23,641 bases of DNA, taken from positions 1 through 23,641 of the IMG/VR virus record IMGVR_UViG_3300005537_000062. One strand, written 5' to 3'. Position 1 is the first letter of the stretch, and every line of letters begins with the position of its first letter. Under the pieces are notes generated by a model. That model saw only the letters and a program-made list of their open reading frames with translations. It did no database searches and was not told the DNA's origin. A program made the translations under genes and the position numbers. This DNA comes from a virus. Below are positions 4,697 through 22,488 of this stretch, piece by piece.

Positions 4697-6154
4697 TTAT
4701 CTCCTTACCTCTTGAATAATGTCTAATTCAAATGACTCCATCCGAAGAGGATAGGGTTGTTGATACACAAATTTAAATGCTCGTCTTCGAGTCAATCCCA
4801 ACTGCATTATCGTGGGATAGACAGCACTCACATCCAACGGAACACCGGTAGTAAACGTATTATAGTCATCATCTGACCACGAGACCATCATATTGATCCC
4901 TTGATTATCTCCAGCAGGAGAGTCGGTAATCAGAGTCAGTCGATACAGACGCTTGCGTTTGATTGTATCAAAGTCAAGTTTAACGGTAACAACCATACAG
5001 TTAATGACATTACCCAGATCGGTATAGGTAGTTGGAGACAGGGCCACAGTGGTGTTTGTCGAGTTAGAACTCAGCAAAACTGGTTGTCCATTCCCAGAGT
5101 CGGCAACATAATCATAACCAAAATAAGCTTGACCTGTTCCGCTTGACCACTCATGCCACATCTGTTCTTCAAAGTCATACACAAATGTTCTAGAGTTTGC
5201 TTTGAGATTCAAGACGTACCATTTATGACCAGCGCATTGGATTGTGAAACCAGTAGCACTAGAGATAGACGAGCCTTCTGCATCAAGTGCTTCTCGAACA
5301 GGAGCAGTAGCAATCTCTGAAGGCTGGAATCCACTCAAGGTCCAGACTGTTCGACCACCATTACCGGTTTGACCAACCAGCATCAATTCCTGTTCTGTCT
5401 GACTAATAGTCTGTGGAGCGGGACAACCAAACTGTGATACCGCTGGAGCATTCCGTTGAAGCGGAGATCCGGTTGAATTAGCGTTGTCGTATAACCACTC
5501 AACTGACCCCATACCGATTGCGGCTAGGTAGTTCTGTGATTTAGACAAACCAACCAGATTATCTGGAAACATTTCAACGTCAATGAAACCGTCTGCGGGC
5601 CATGTCGTTGGATCGTTTAAATTACTGTTGTGAATAGTCTGAGTTCCAGAGGCAGCCAGAAAGATGTAGGCATCTAGAAAGATAGGTTGAGGAATGTGGG
5701 GTATAGGGAAATTCGTTGCTCCACTAACCAGTGTTAGAGAGTTGCTTGTCGTGATTGTCCAAGCACTCATTCCAGTGCAAAAAAACAGTTCATCGACAGT
5801 ATCAGTACGAAATTCACAGAACCCACACGGACCCGTAGTACCGTCCGAGATTGTTAAAATAGCAGTGCCATTGGCATACAGAGTGTTACCAATGACTGTG
5901 TAATAAGTCGTGTTAGATGCCCAGTAAAAAATGGCTCGACCTGTTCCAGTACTTCCAAACGTTCGGTTCGTGGCAACGCCTGGACGTTTCTTTAGATAGT
6001 ACTTCTTTCCATCAGAGATAGGACTCTTAATCAATTCAGGGTACACATTAAGGAATCGTTGATCCTTCTGATATGAACCATCCCGCTGTTGGGGCGAACC
6101 AATGAAAGAGAAGCGTTGTGTATGATACTGTGTAAAATACGGATTAGTTGCCAT
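4697..6154 (-). CDS. P22 gp10-like tail accessory / packaged-DNA stabilisation protein
   Basis: This 485-aa protein is close to the length of P22 gp10 (about 470). It has an N-terminal FLNVYPE and KKRPGV pattern (about residues 34-57) followed by repeated beta-propeller-like strands, which I recognise from the phage stabilisation family. In P22 this protein forms part of the tail tube below the portal and gp4 and plugs the channel so packaged DNA does not leak. The gene for a gp4-like adaptor lies two genes upstream, as expected for this neck type. Its first 11 nt overlap the preceding membrane-protein gene. There is no signal peptide or membrane segment. Confidence 0.82.
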   Translation of the reverse strand: MATNPYFTQYHTQRFSFIGSPQQRDGSYQKDQRFLNVYPELIKSPISDGKKYYLKKRPGVATNRTFGSTGTGRAIFYWASNTTYYTVIGNTLYANGTAILTISDGTTGPCGFCEFRTDTVDELFFCTGMSAWTITTSNSLTLVSGATNFPIPHIPQPIFLDAYIFLAASGTQTIHNSNLNDPTTWPADGFIDVEMFPDNLVGLSKSQNYLAAIGMGSVEWLYDNANSTGSPLQRNAPAVSQFGCPAPQTISQTEQELMLVGQTGNGGRTVWTLSGFQPSEIATAPVREALDAEGSSISSATGFTIQCAGHKWYVLNLKANSRTFVYDFEEQMWHEWSSGTGQAYFGYDYVADSGNGQPVLLSSNSTNTTVALSPTTYTDLGNVINCMVVTVKLDFDTIKRKRLYRLTLITDSPAGDNQGINMMVSWSDDDYNTFTTGVPLDVSAVYPTIMQLGLTRRRAFKFVYQQPYPLRMESFELDIIQEVRR

Positions 6155-6458
6155 CGTCTTCTACTTCCTCTTTGATATCATCCACATCCTTACTAATGTC
6201 CTTTACAGTGTTCCGTATCGTCTCCATCAACTCAGTGTGATAGTTTTCTGTCTGCTCTTGCATCATAGCAAAGAAAGCTAGAGAGACCGACGCCTCCGAA
6301 CTAAGGAGAATGTTGATAAGAGAGAGGTCTTTATCCCACCATGCAACGAGACAGTGTGTCGTTAACCACAGTACAATAAAGCCAAGTAGACCCCAGAGGA
6401 AGGTAGGAGATCCTCGGAACTTCGCATACCACTCTGCAAGATTTTTCTTCTTTGACAT
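6144..6458 (-). CDS. Small two-TM membrane protein (DUF1003-like)
   Basis: I start this gene at ATG 6458 (MSKKKNLAEW; 104 aa) because it follows the upstream TAA by a single base, as elsewhere in this operon; the frame itself is open further upstream. Two hydrophobic spans are visible, about residues 17-41 and 47-68, the second containing INILLSSEAS. A charged, probably coiled C-terminal tail follows (about 70-104, rich in Glu/Asp/Lys). The pattern resembles the DUF1003 and low-affinity iron permease-like small membrane proteins, but no activity can be assigned. Its place between two neck genes is odd for a membrane protein; an accessory lysis or superinfection role is possible but untested. 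Confidence 0.72.
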   Translation of the reverse strand: MSKKKNLAEWYAKFRGSPTFLWGLLGFIVLWLTTHCLVAWWDKDLSLINILLSSEASVSLAFFAMMQEQTENYHTELMETIRNTVKDISKDVDDIKEEVEDDGN

Positions 6459-6459
6459 A

Positions 6460-7215
6460 TTAATACCCACTTGGATTATTTTGACCCATCCCCATGACAA
6501 CCCAATCAGGTTGAATAAAGATACTACCTTCTTCCGTGCCAAAGGAAAGAGCATTCGTGATTAGTGCATTTGCAGTTTCATTCAGTTTGTCAAGCTCACT
6601 GAGAGGCAAACCATACTCAGGTCCAAGGCGATGAGCCAGGGAGTAGATCAGGGGTTCGATCCAGACTTGAGGAAAATCTGGAGTGTCTGTGCTTGCATTG
6701 AACTGATCGAACGCTCGTTGATACACAAAGTAGATAGAACGATTTGTAGCAGTGTACTGATCGGGAGCGGGCCAGATCGTGATCGTGCCTGTTTGGTTAC
6801 CCGGTTGATACCAAAAGTGAACTGGGTAGCCTTGATTAACTTTCGTACTCAGCAAATTGTAGTTGTACTGAGTGTAGATATTCATCGGGATATCTGTGTT
6901 ACTGATATTATCTCGACTGAATGCTTGGGTGATCTTAAGAGGGGCTTGGATATTCAGATTCCCTGTACCAATCCCCAAACCTACTTGATAAGCAGTCTGA
7001 CCCAGAACTGGAGTGAAGAAAGTCGTCGTCATTGCCCAAATAGGCATTCCCTGTGCATACAGAGAGAACACCAGATTATTCAACGCCTCTTGAGCATTGG
7101 TCATCTGTGTCGTAGTAGCTGTCGAACCATCAACACCGATACCGATTTTACGGTGGGCAGCATTGATGATCTGATCTCTTGTATAATTCCAGTTAGCTGC
7201 GCCAGAGATCGACAT
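6460..7215 (-). CDS. P22 gp4-like head-tail (neck) adaptor
   Basis: This 251-aa protein begins with NWNYTRDQIINAAHRKIG (about residues 8-25), an opening helix seen in podovirus gp4-like proteins. ALNNLVFSLYAQGMPIWAM follows, then a beta-rich section and a C-terminal helix (PLIYSLAHRLGPEYGLP). P22 gp4 (about 166 aa) binds the portal and extends the channel; this protein is longer. The gp10-like partner is encoded just downstream, which supports the call. The stop is followed after one base by the membrane protein start. The neck position is likely; exact orthology to gp4 is an inference. Confidence 0.72.
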   Translation of the reverse strand: MSISGAANWNYTRDQIINAAHRKIGIGVDGSTATTTQMTNAQEALNNLVFSLYAQGMPIWAMTTTFFTPVLGQTAYQVGLGIGTGNLNIQAPLKITQAFSRDNISNTDIPMNIYTQYNYNLLSTKVNQGYPVHFWYQPGNQTGTITIWPAPDQYTATNRSIYFVYQRAFDQFNASTDTPDFPQVWIEPLIYSLAHRLGPEYGLPLSELDKLNETANALITNALSFGTEEGSIFIQPDWVVMGMGQNNPSGY

Positions 7216-21034: not shown

Positions 21035-21062
21035 TTGAAAATCTGTTTGGAGTGTGTATAAT
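21035..21062 (+). promoter_or_regulatory. Strong sigma70-type early promoter
   Basis: TTGAAA (21035-21040), a 16-bp spacer and a perfect TATAAT (21057-21062) predict initiation near 21069. It drives the 297-aa gene and possibly the two small genes beyond the ribozyme. Confidence 0.85.
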
Positions 21063-21117: not shown

Positions 21118-22011
21118 ATGGATACGGCAACCAATGCGGTAGTGTCTGGCAAAATGGAACCTGTCGGCAAACAAGAGGCGAAGCCTCAATTGCTCGTGAC
21201 TGGGCAATGGCTGTATGACAATTTCGTGCAGTCTGACGAAACACAAATCACGCGTATGCACTCAATTCGCGCATTGGTTGAAAAAGACGTTGATGCATTC
21301 CAGATCAACGGCGCGTGCGAAAAGATGATCGAAAAGGCCAAAGAAGTAGACAAGGTCAACGGTTGCCCGGAAAAGGTAGTTGACGAAAAGACGGGCAAAG
21401 AGCGCGCGTATCGTGGTCCGAAGACGCAGCAAGCAATGAACGTTCGTACGATCATTCAAAATTCATGGGGGGCTCTGAAGTTCGCACGAAAGGAACTTGA
21501 AGCGCTCGGGTATGATGACCGGACGGGCTACAATGCAATGCAGGTGCTTGCCAAACGTGCACTTGATGCAAAGCACATTAAATGGCTCGGCACTCCGCTT
21601 GCTACGCCAGAAGAAAAAGAGCGCAAGGCGATTGCCAAGTCGCAAAAGGCGATTACAGGTGTACGCGCTCAAGTTATGAGTGATAACCCGCAAAACGCGG
21701 GCGAAACAGACGAAGAATACCTTGCCCGGATTCTCAAGCTGTCGAATAAAGAAGTGGAAAAGGCAAGGGAAGAGAACGAACAAGCGGCAGTAACGGCTAT
21801 CGTTGATCTTCTGTTCTCGAAGCATGACAAGGCTCGTATGTCGCGCGTCATGCAAGAAATTGCTAACCGTCTTGGTTTGGAATTGACGGATGACAGCGAA
21901 GCCGATACGCACGCGGAAGAAATAGCTGATCAAGCGAACATTGACGCAATACAAGAGGCTGAAGCCAACGCAGTAACGCAGGAACAAGTGGAAGAAGTTC
22001 ACCACGAGTAA
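21118..22011 (+). CDS. Main early protein of unknown function (297 aa)
   Basis: I choose ATG 21118 (MDTATNAVVSG) since AAAGGGG lies 6 nt upstream; ATG 21115 is possible, and upstream starts fall inside the -10 box. The protein is highly charged and mostly helical, with no membrane span. Residues 90-150 include RTIIQNSWGALKFARKELEALGYD. A Lys/Arg-rich helix follows around 165-180. ETDEEYLARILKLSNKEVEKAREENE (about 199-224, shown in two halves) looks coiled-coil, and the C-terminal 40 residues are acidic (Glu/Asp/Gln/Ala). I do not recognise a family. A strong promoter, a 5' hairpin and a ribozyme two bases after the stop suggest high and carefully limited expression. Confidence 0.85.
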   Translation: MDTATNAVVSGKMEPVGKQEAKPQLLVTGQWLYDNFVQSDETQITRMHSIRALVEKDVDAFQINGACEKMIEKAKEVDKVNGCPEKVVDEKTGKERAYRGPKTQQAMNVRTIIQNSWGALKFARKELEALGYDDRTGYNAMQVLAKRALDAKHIKWLGTPLATPEEKERKAIAKSQKAITGVRAQVMSDNPQNAGETDEEYLARILKLSNKEVEKAREENEQAAVTAIVDLLFSKHDKARMSRVMQEIANRLGLELTDDSEADTHAEEIADQANIDAIQEAEANAVTQEQVEEVHHE

Positions 22012-22013
22012 TA

Positions 22014-22071
22014 GGACGAAATAGGGTGCGCAAGCGCCCTATATATGCGTTATGCGCATACTGACGAGTCC
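22014..22071 (+). ncRNA. Type II hammerhead ribozyme
   Basis: All core parts are present in type II order. Stem II is GGAC (22014-22017) with GTCC (22068-22071). GAA of the GAAA core is 22018-22020, and A22021 starts stem III. Stem III has 9 bp (22021-22029 with 22034-22042, one U-G) and a GCAA tetraloop. The cleavage triplet is AUA (22041-22043), which obeys the NUH rule. Stem I has 6 bp (22044-22049 with 22055-22060) and a 5-nt loop. CUGACGA (22061-22067) fits CUGANGA. Cleavage is predicted between 22043 and 22044. It begins two bases after the TAA of the 297-aa gene. Confidence 0.9.
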
Positions 22072-22115
22072 GCAGAGAATGACCGGATAAACCCTTTTTA
22101 TAGCGGAGAAATTTT

Positions 22116-22337
22116 ATGTTTTCCGTTCTTTTTGGTGCGGTAATGGTGCTGCATATGCAAGCAAATCATGCGATACATGAGAACGTATTACGGCAAGAAT
22201 TAGCCGTTAACGGCATGTATAGCGAAGATGCAGCTAACAGCATATGGTATTTACAACGGCACTCGTTTGCAGCGAAACCCGTTGCAACCCAATGGACATA
22301 TTATGATCCTGAAACGAATACTTTCCGTATGGTGTAA
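22116..22337 (+). CDS. Hypothetical small early protein (73 aa)
   Basis: ATG 22116 has GGAG about 8 nt upstream. The N-terminus (MFSVLFGAVMVLHM, 1-14) is hydrophobic, either a short signal-like helix or a buried helix. The rest is polar, ending TYYDPETNTFRMV. It lies 45 nt after the ribozyme, so cleavage would leave it on a new message with a 5'-hydroxyl end and a stem I half-hairpin. The family is unknown. Confidence 0.7.
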   Translation: MFSVLFGAVMVLHMQANHAIHENVLRQELAVNGMYSEDAANSIWYLQRHSFAAKPVATQWTYYDPETNTFRMV

Positions 22338-22455
22338 TACCATCTGGATTGAAAAGGACGGGTTTTGGTCCGTCCGTTTAAAGTGTTTAAATGGGGAACC
22401 CCTAGGGGTTTCGTGCGGCAAATGGGTGTCTTACAAAAACATACCCTGGTGCTAA
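22303..22455 (+). CDS. Hypothetical small early protein (50 aa)
   Basis: ATG 22303 starts a 50-codon frame that overlaps the previous gene by 35 nt. The sequence (MILKRILSVWCNTIW, later LKCLNGEPLGVSCGKWV and a C-terminal WC) is Trp- and Cys-rich with four Cys. The SD is weak (GGAC), so translation is likely coupled to the upstream gene. A strong terminator follows after 5 nt. It contains the perfect palindrome AACCCCTAGGGGTT (22397-22410). No domain is recognised. Confidence 0.55.
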   Translation: MILKRILSVWCNTIWIEKDGFWSVRLKCLNGEPLGVSCGKWVSYKNIPWC

Positions 22456-22460
22456 ATGAG

Positions 22461-22488
22461 AGCCGCTCTTTATGAGTGGCTTTTTTTT
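22461..22488 (+). terminator. Strong intrinsic terminator
   Basis: AGCCGCTC pairs with GAGTGGCT (8 bp, one G-U) around TTTAT and is followed by eight T. It ends the transcript of the 297-aa gene, ribozyme and two small genes. Confidence 0.92.

Follow-up and report, generated by a model that had tools for sequence, protein, structure and literature searches.

A candidate type II hammerhead ribozyme flush with a stop codon between two phage genes

Introduction

Why do phages keep hammerhead ribozymes between their genes? A 2017 review that ties these RNAs to phages leaves the reason as an open question (PMC6155905). The kind itself is already known, type II hammerheads between prophage genes having been reported in 2011. 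In that survey (Perreault 2011, PMC3088659), tandem hammerheads flanking prophage genes cleave in vitro and in E. coli, and 4 of 18 candidates that conformed to the consensus were inactive when tested. The same question is raised by a site at 22014-22071 on the plus strand of a 23,641-nucleotide viral stretch (hereafter the window), where a hammerhead-like element lies between two genes.

Results

A type II hammerhead arrangement at 22014-22071

A preliminary description, made from the sequence alone, had placed a type II hammerhead at 22014-22071, and direct reading, folding and model scoring confirm it base for base. Together with its two shoulder nucleotides, the element occupies 22013-22072. 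It opens with the GGAC strand of stem II (22014-22017, partner 22068-22071) and the core GAAA (22018-22021; G12, A13, A14 and A15.1), followed by the stem III hairpin (22021-22042), in which 22021-22029 and 22034-22042 form 9 bp, counting A15.1-U16.1, under a GCAA tetraloop. A22043 is H17 of an AUA triplet. The stem I hairpin (22044-22060) has 6 bp between 22044-22049 and 22055-22060 and a UUAUG loop (22050-22054) of the consensus U-N-A-N-G, and it is followed by the core CUGACGA (22061-22067; C3 to A9) and the GUCC strand of stem II (22068-22071). On direct reading all core positions of the hammerhead are present: C3, U4, G5, A6, N7, G8 and A9; G12, A13 and A14; A15.1-U16.1; and A as H17. The fold and our scanner both place three gap-free helices at this core, with core-adjacent mispairs absent. 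The order of GAAA, stem III hairpin, NUH, stem I hairpin and CUGANGA, with stem II closed by the two ends, is that of type II. Scanning the window for a second hammerhead, or for a type I or III arrangement, found none. Hammerhead cleavage follows H17 of the NUH triplet, and by this rule and the AUA triplet the cut predicted earlier at 22043/22044 holds up.

The minimum-free-energy fold of the 58 nucleotides is exactly the hammerhead three-way junction (-25.3 kcal/mol, z -4.5), which none of 200 shuffled sequences equalled. Our scanner, which demands the hammerhead core, the NUH and all three helices, returned one match in the window (score 20) against one (score 13) in 100 Markov shuffles, both strands being searched. 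We additionally built a covariance model, R1, from 49 ungapped, non-redundant phage elements, leaving out the window and its relatives. The model gave the window 50.9 bits (E 5e-12), and it gave 59.9 and 55.5 bits to elements in two related viral contigs, L001 and L128. The L128 hammerhead had been missed by the strict scanner because of an extra U in its core, and was detected by the model. Across the 49 elements, which were selected on pairing of stems I and III with diversity of pair types not a criterion, 99.9% of the cells are paired and both sides have changed in 14 of 16 pairs, compared with at most 42% pairing in slid controls. The helices are also backed by covariation in relatives, including the orthologous elements of L128 and a third contig, L303. 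Covariation in homologous phages had been put forward as a check, and orthologous as well as unrelated phages indeed keep the core while changing both sides of the stems. On its sequence, the segment 22014-22071 is almost certainly a complete type II hammerhead and a candidate for cleavage.

Rfam describes a different subgroup

A search of the window against Rfam returned no family at threshold. RF02276 (Hammerhead_II) gave no window match at any threshold used, and its gathering threshold was not reached. When a 62-nt slice was searched, RF03152 (RAGATH-1-hammerhead) matched the first half (18.1 bits) and RF00008 (Hammerhead_3) the second (12.3 bits), as expected because the element is a circular permutation of their order; RF03152, RF00008 and RF00163 (the latter two being types III and I) share the core with the window, differ in which helix is open and score far below threshold. 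RF02276 has the topology and core of the window element, and differs from it, as an alignment of the model to a phage element in contig L107 revealed, in that stem II has 2 bp and loop I is larger in the model. Rfam is silent on the window because RF02276 describes a different subgroup, one that has a pseudoknot and just two base pairs in stem II, and the absence reflects the model rather than the RNA. The preliminary description would have taken the lack of an Rfam hit as a refutation; the lack is real, but it refutes nothing, given that RF02276 covers another subgroup. Across eight loci holding 38 scanner elements, a single element passed the Rfam threshold and a second did so with more permissive filters, and 18 further loci had no Rfam hammerhead match.

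A short-loop subgroup is abundant in viral contigs

We defined a short-loop phage subgroup by a stem II of 4 bp preceded by A, a stem-loop I of 17-18 nt, a U-N-A-N-G loop and a stop codon at most 12 nt 5' of the element. All of these are found in the window, which has A22013, GGAC/GUCC, a 17-nt stem-loop I, UUAUG and a TAA 2 nt before. The pattern GGACGAAA-N30-60-CTGANGAGTCC occurs in at least 120 stretches of viral contigs, and so does the compensated stem II form GGTC/GACC, whereas the core-mutant control CTCANGA (G5C) has 6 viral stretches. Among the viral matches listed, all stems form in 132 of 146 for the GGAC pattern (against 1 of 2920 shuffled sequences), and both hairpins form in 105 of 119 for GGTC/GACC (against 1 of 2380). 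The 257 Gb of bacterial and archaeal genomes yielded 44 stretches, with stems forming in 16 of 43 unique matches. The short-loop form is thus present in at least hundreds of copies in viral contigs and is rare in genomes. Type II had been called the rarest topology, which does not stand: it is very common in the viral contigs searched here and, according to PMC3088659, occurs in bacteria as often as types I and III.

Within the subgroup stem II has 4 bp and stem-loop I is mostly 17-18 nt long. A stop codon overlaps stem II or lies within 12 nt of it in 218 of 290 elements among the matches listed; in the same matches the next start codon follows the element at a median of 22-24 nt, and 265 of the 275 starts found have a Shine-Dalgarno-like motif. 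Up to nine hammerhead elements occur per contig. The AUA triplet of the window is rare in the subgroup (2 of 281). As a separate observation, one operon in contig L107 (4957-7550) alternates both kinds of type II element, those with a large pseudoknot-type loop I and those lacking it.

Loop I covaries with the nucleotides flanking stem II

In PMC3088659, type II hammerheads have an open stem II, closed stems I and III and an identical core, and lie between phage genes, often several per operon, as in the window. The type II consensus given there has a pseudoknot between loop I and the 3' tail; the window's subgroup has instead a loop I of 5-6 nt, a 4-bp stem II and no excess of pseudoknots. 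We scored a pseudoknot where loop I forms at least 4 Watson-Crick pairs with the tail immediately 3' of stem II. Such pairing showed no excess in 277 short-loop elements (6.1% compared to 7.1% in shuffled sequences), and inspection of the window found no such pairing. We also considered a pseudoknot of loop I with a tetranucleotide 15 nt after GUCC (UUAU/AUAA in the window, UAAG/CUUA in L001) and rejected it, as it is absent by inspection from L128 and L303 and pairing within 12 nt is not in excess in the population.

The loop is nevertheless constrained. In 207 five-nucleotide loops I, position 1 is U in 204, position 3 is A in 156 and position 5 is G in 154. An A precedes stem II in 204 of the 207, and the base after it is G in 28, as it is in the window, A being commoner. 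Position 1 tracks the 5' shoulder, with U accompanied by A in all 169 cases and the three cases of A accompanied by U, U or C. Position 5 tracks the 3' shoulder (U5-A in 33 of 33, A5-U in 11 of 20, G5-A in 121 of 154), with p 0.0002 after dereplication, relatedness being reduced rather than modelled. These patterns fit a compact contact between loop and shoulder that would replace the pseudoknot. The window follows them with A22013 and UUAUG, but has G rather than A on the 3' side. Perreault 2011 (PMC3088659) refers to hammerheads that lack pseudoknots and to other stem I-stem II contacts in supplementary figures, so some of these features may have been described before.

A core variant with an extra U

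Elements in which a single additional nucleotide separates A9 from stem II were observed at L128:4782-4836, L303:3919-3962 and L303:4174-4228. The extra nucleotide is U in 10 of 10 cases in the loci examined, and insertions of two nucleotides were not found among them. An Rfam search of eight extra-U loci found none, and we found no mention of the variant in the text of Perreault 2011 (PMC3088659). The pattern GGTCGAAA..CTGANGATGACC matches 97 viral stretches; both stems form in 91 of 103 unique matches, compared with 0 of 2060 shuffled sequences, and 79 of the 91 lie at a stop codon.

Genes and signals around the element

Upstream of the ribozyme lies a 297-aa gene (21118-22011), preceded by a sigma-70-like promoter (21035-21062; TTGAAA-16-TATAAT, 11/12) that is a pattern match only, the consensus scan giving 3 in the region against 6.4 expected in shuffles. 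Like the ribozyme, the genes and signals around it all lie on the plus strand. The 297-aa gene ends in tandem in-frame stops, TAA TAG (22009-22014). The TAA ends 2 nt before stem II, and the TAG overlaps it, its A being the conserved shoulder base A22013 and its last G the first base of stem II. Downstream, a 73-aa gene (22116-22337), whose L001 ortholog is 66% identical, starts 44 nt after stem II behind the Shine-Dalgarno sequence GCGGAG (22104-22109). A hairpin at 22102-22127 holds this Shine-Dalgarno sequence in its stem and the start codon in its loop, and initiation at the 73-aa gene may be weak or regulated given this predicted structure. A terminator-like hairpin with a T-run (22458-22484; consensus scan) would close the transcript. 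Pfam and PHROG searches of the 297-aa and 73-aa genes gave no match, and the window had no DNA similarity to named phages.

The same site holds a ribozyme or a terminator-like hairpin in relatives

Relatives of the 297-aa gene were found in five viral contigs and one named phage: L001 (74% identity), L128 and L127 (41-42%), L302 and L303 (about 40%) and Alcaligenes phage QDWS535 (32% over 70%). In L128, where the protein is 41% identical, a hammerhead follows the orthologous stop codon (GAGTAATAGGCCGAAA, compared with GAGTAATAGGACGAAA in the window), and its stems I and III differ in sequence and are still paired. L303 likewise has a hammerhead at the orthologous site, and a second one after the next gene. 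In the closest relative, L001, a terminator-like hairpin occupies the site; its hammerhead lies beyond the following gene, flanked by two small genes that are related to each other. Terminator-like hairpins also lie just after the stop codon in L127 and QDWS535. In L127 an extra gene has been inserted, and beyond it comes a hammerhead's 5' half, its stem III having become a hairpin that carries a T-run. In L302 the terminator scan lists none at the site, and exchange there is unproven.

From pattern matches in these six genomes we infer that ribozyme and terminator-like hairpin interchange at the site as two ways to form the upstream 3' end. The presence of one or the other at the same position suggests a role in processing the mRNA and forming its 3' end. 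In L001 and L302 the sequence following the upstream gene may contain hammerhead remnants, but the signal is too weak to claim them.

Discussion

We consider it very probable that this RNA functions as a type II hammerhead, which would cut the nascent transcript, yielding separate messages with structured, exonuclease-resistant ends. This reading draws on sequence, fold, covariation, conservation of position, population context and the exchange with terminator-like hairpins. The promoter-like and terminator-like signals would delimit a transcript about 1.4 kb long, cut between A22043 and U22044 as it is made. Hammerhead cleavage leaves 2',3'-cyclic phosphate and 5'-hydroxyl ends; applying this known chemistry, the 297-aa message would run just past its stop codon and finish with the 9-bp hairpin of stem III, bearing a 2',3'-cyclic phosphate. 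The 73-aa message would carry a 5'-hydroxyl and open immediately with the hairpin of stem I. One read-through transcript would so become separate messages, with protection of both messages at their new ends and stabilisation or uncoupling as the presumed benefit. Separation of the 297-aa message from what follows, as proposed earlier, is supported. Against this reading stand the rarity of AUA, competing pairings of GUCC, the terminator-like hairpin at the L001 site and the 4 of 18 candidates that proved inactive in Perreault 2011 although they fitted the consensus.

Several other explanations must be weighed against cleavage into separate messages. The strongest, which we still regard as unlikely, is that translation gates the ribozyme: a ribosome at the stop codon or the next Shine-Dalgarno sequence would cover stem II, and cleavage would report low translation. 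Most phage elements have the stop codon right beside stem II or running into it, in many cases with the shoulder A in common, and in the window the second stop of TAA TAG overlaps stem II; compact phage spacing alone, however, could put a ribozyme flush between genes, and the gating idea, though appealing, is unproven. That the element is an inactive relic, with stem III now serving only as an mRNA 3' hairpin, is very improbable. A hammerhead 5' half in L127 (TAACAGGTCGAAACCCCT..AGGGGCTTTTTG) did become a terminator-like hairpin, but relics would decay first in the core, and in the window the core bases and all three helices are intact. Chance resemblance, meaning two hairpins flanked by core-like words, is hardly credible. 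CTGANGA alone is no commoner than chance in the window, yet the scanner comparison with shuffles, the stem formation in the population and the model score all speak against it, and the elements at the orthologous site in L128 and L303 contradict it.

A switch is the remaining alternative, with GUCC alternating between stem II and either CGGAU or the Shine-Dalgarno sequence, so that cleavage and 73-aa gene expression would be linked. The preliminary description had proposed the hairpin of GUCCG (22068-22072) with CGGAU (22084-22088) as an off-switch, and on paper it is real: its fold reaches -27.4 kcal/mol against -26.7 for the ribozyme, marginally better once 22090 is transcribed. UCCGC (22069-22073) can also pair with GCGGA of the Shine-Dalgarno sequence (22104-22108), and in longer transcripts alternative GUCC pairings are predicted to be as stable as stem II. 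The near-equal energies favour a switch. By inspection, however, neither pairing occurs in L001, L128 or L303, which leaves the proposed hairpin a feature of the window only, and predicted accessibility of the Shine-Dalgarno sequence is low in every state. As had been noted, the competing hairpin emerges later; the ribozyme would be complete before either competitor is transcribed. We therefore rate a switch as quite unlikely.

For the preferred reading, cleavage into separate messages, the comparison offers a concrete answer to why hammerheads lie between phage genes: mRNA end formation, interchangeable with terminators and flush with the stop codon. More tentatively, and with real doubt that every part will hold, we propose a large, database-invisible class of phage type II hammerheads in which the ends of loop I (U1, G5) would contact the nucleotides flanking stem II without a pseudoknot, placement flush with the stop would let the ribosome gate cleavage, read-through to a ribozyme would be an alternative to a terminator for making 3' ends, and the extra-U form would be a widespread sister. 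The window copy is a new member of the known kind, and the pseudoknot-less subgroup and its placement are a variant unrecognised by Rfam. A covariance model now exists for this subgroup, which Rfam misses almost completely, and phage annotations therefore probably undercount ribozymes. A known parallel is HHphage of haloviruses HF1 and HF2 (PMC3088659), a hammerhead that immediately precedes an early gene of the phage and has its cleavage site close to a mapped RNA 5' end; unlike the window element, it has a core insertion near C3 and belongs to an archaeal virus.

Small genes beside the elements

The preliminary description had counted two small genes downstream of the ribozyme; ahead of the terminator-like hairpin at 22458-22484 we find one clear gene, of 73 aa, and a short ORF with an ATC start. 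This ORF (WIxKxGFW...IPWC; window 22338-22455, L001:6867-6977) is conserved and begins with ATG in L001, and a search of named phages found no homologs of it or of the 73-aa gene. In L127, the half hammerhead turned terminator-like hairpin (5112-5145, TAACAGGTCGAAACCCCTGAAGTTTAGGGGCTTTTTG) follows the inserted 103-aa gene, whose product resembles, by eye, the C-terminal domain of ribosomal protein L7/L12. In addition, a family of 57-62 aa proteins (FFGxKxGQ..xFMxEIxELSP; L001:6074-6247 and 6391-6576, L303:3981-4169) is encoded next to hammerheads in two phages, and in L001 one hammerhead has a copy on either side.
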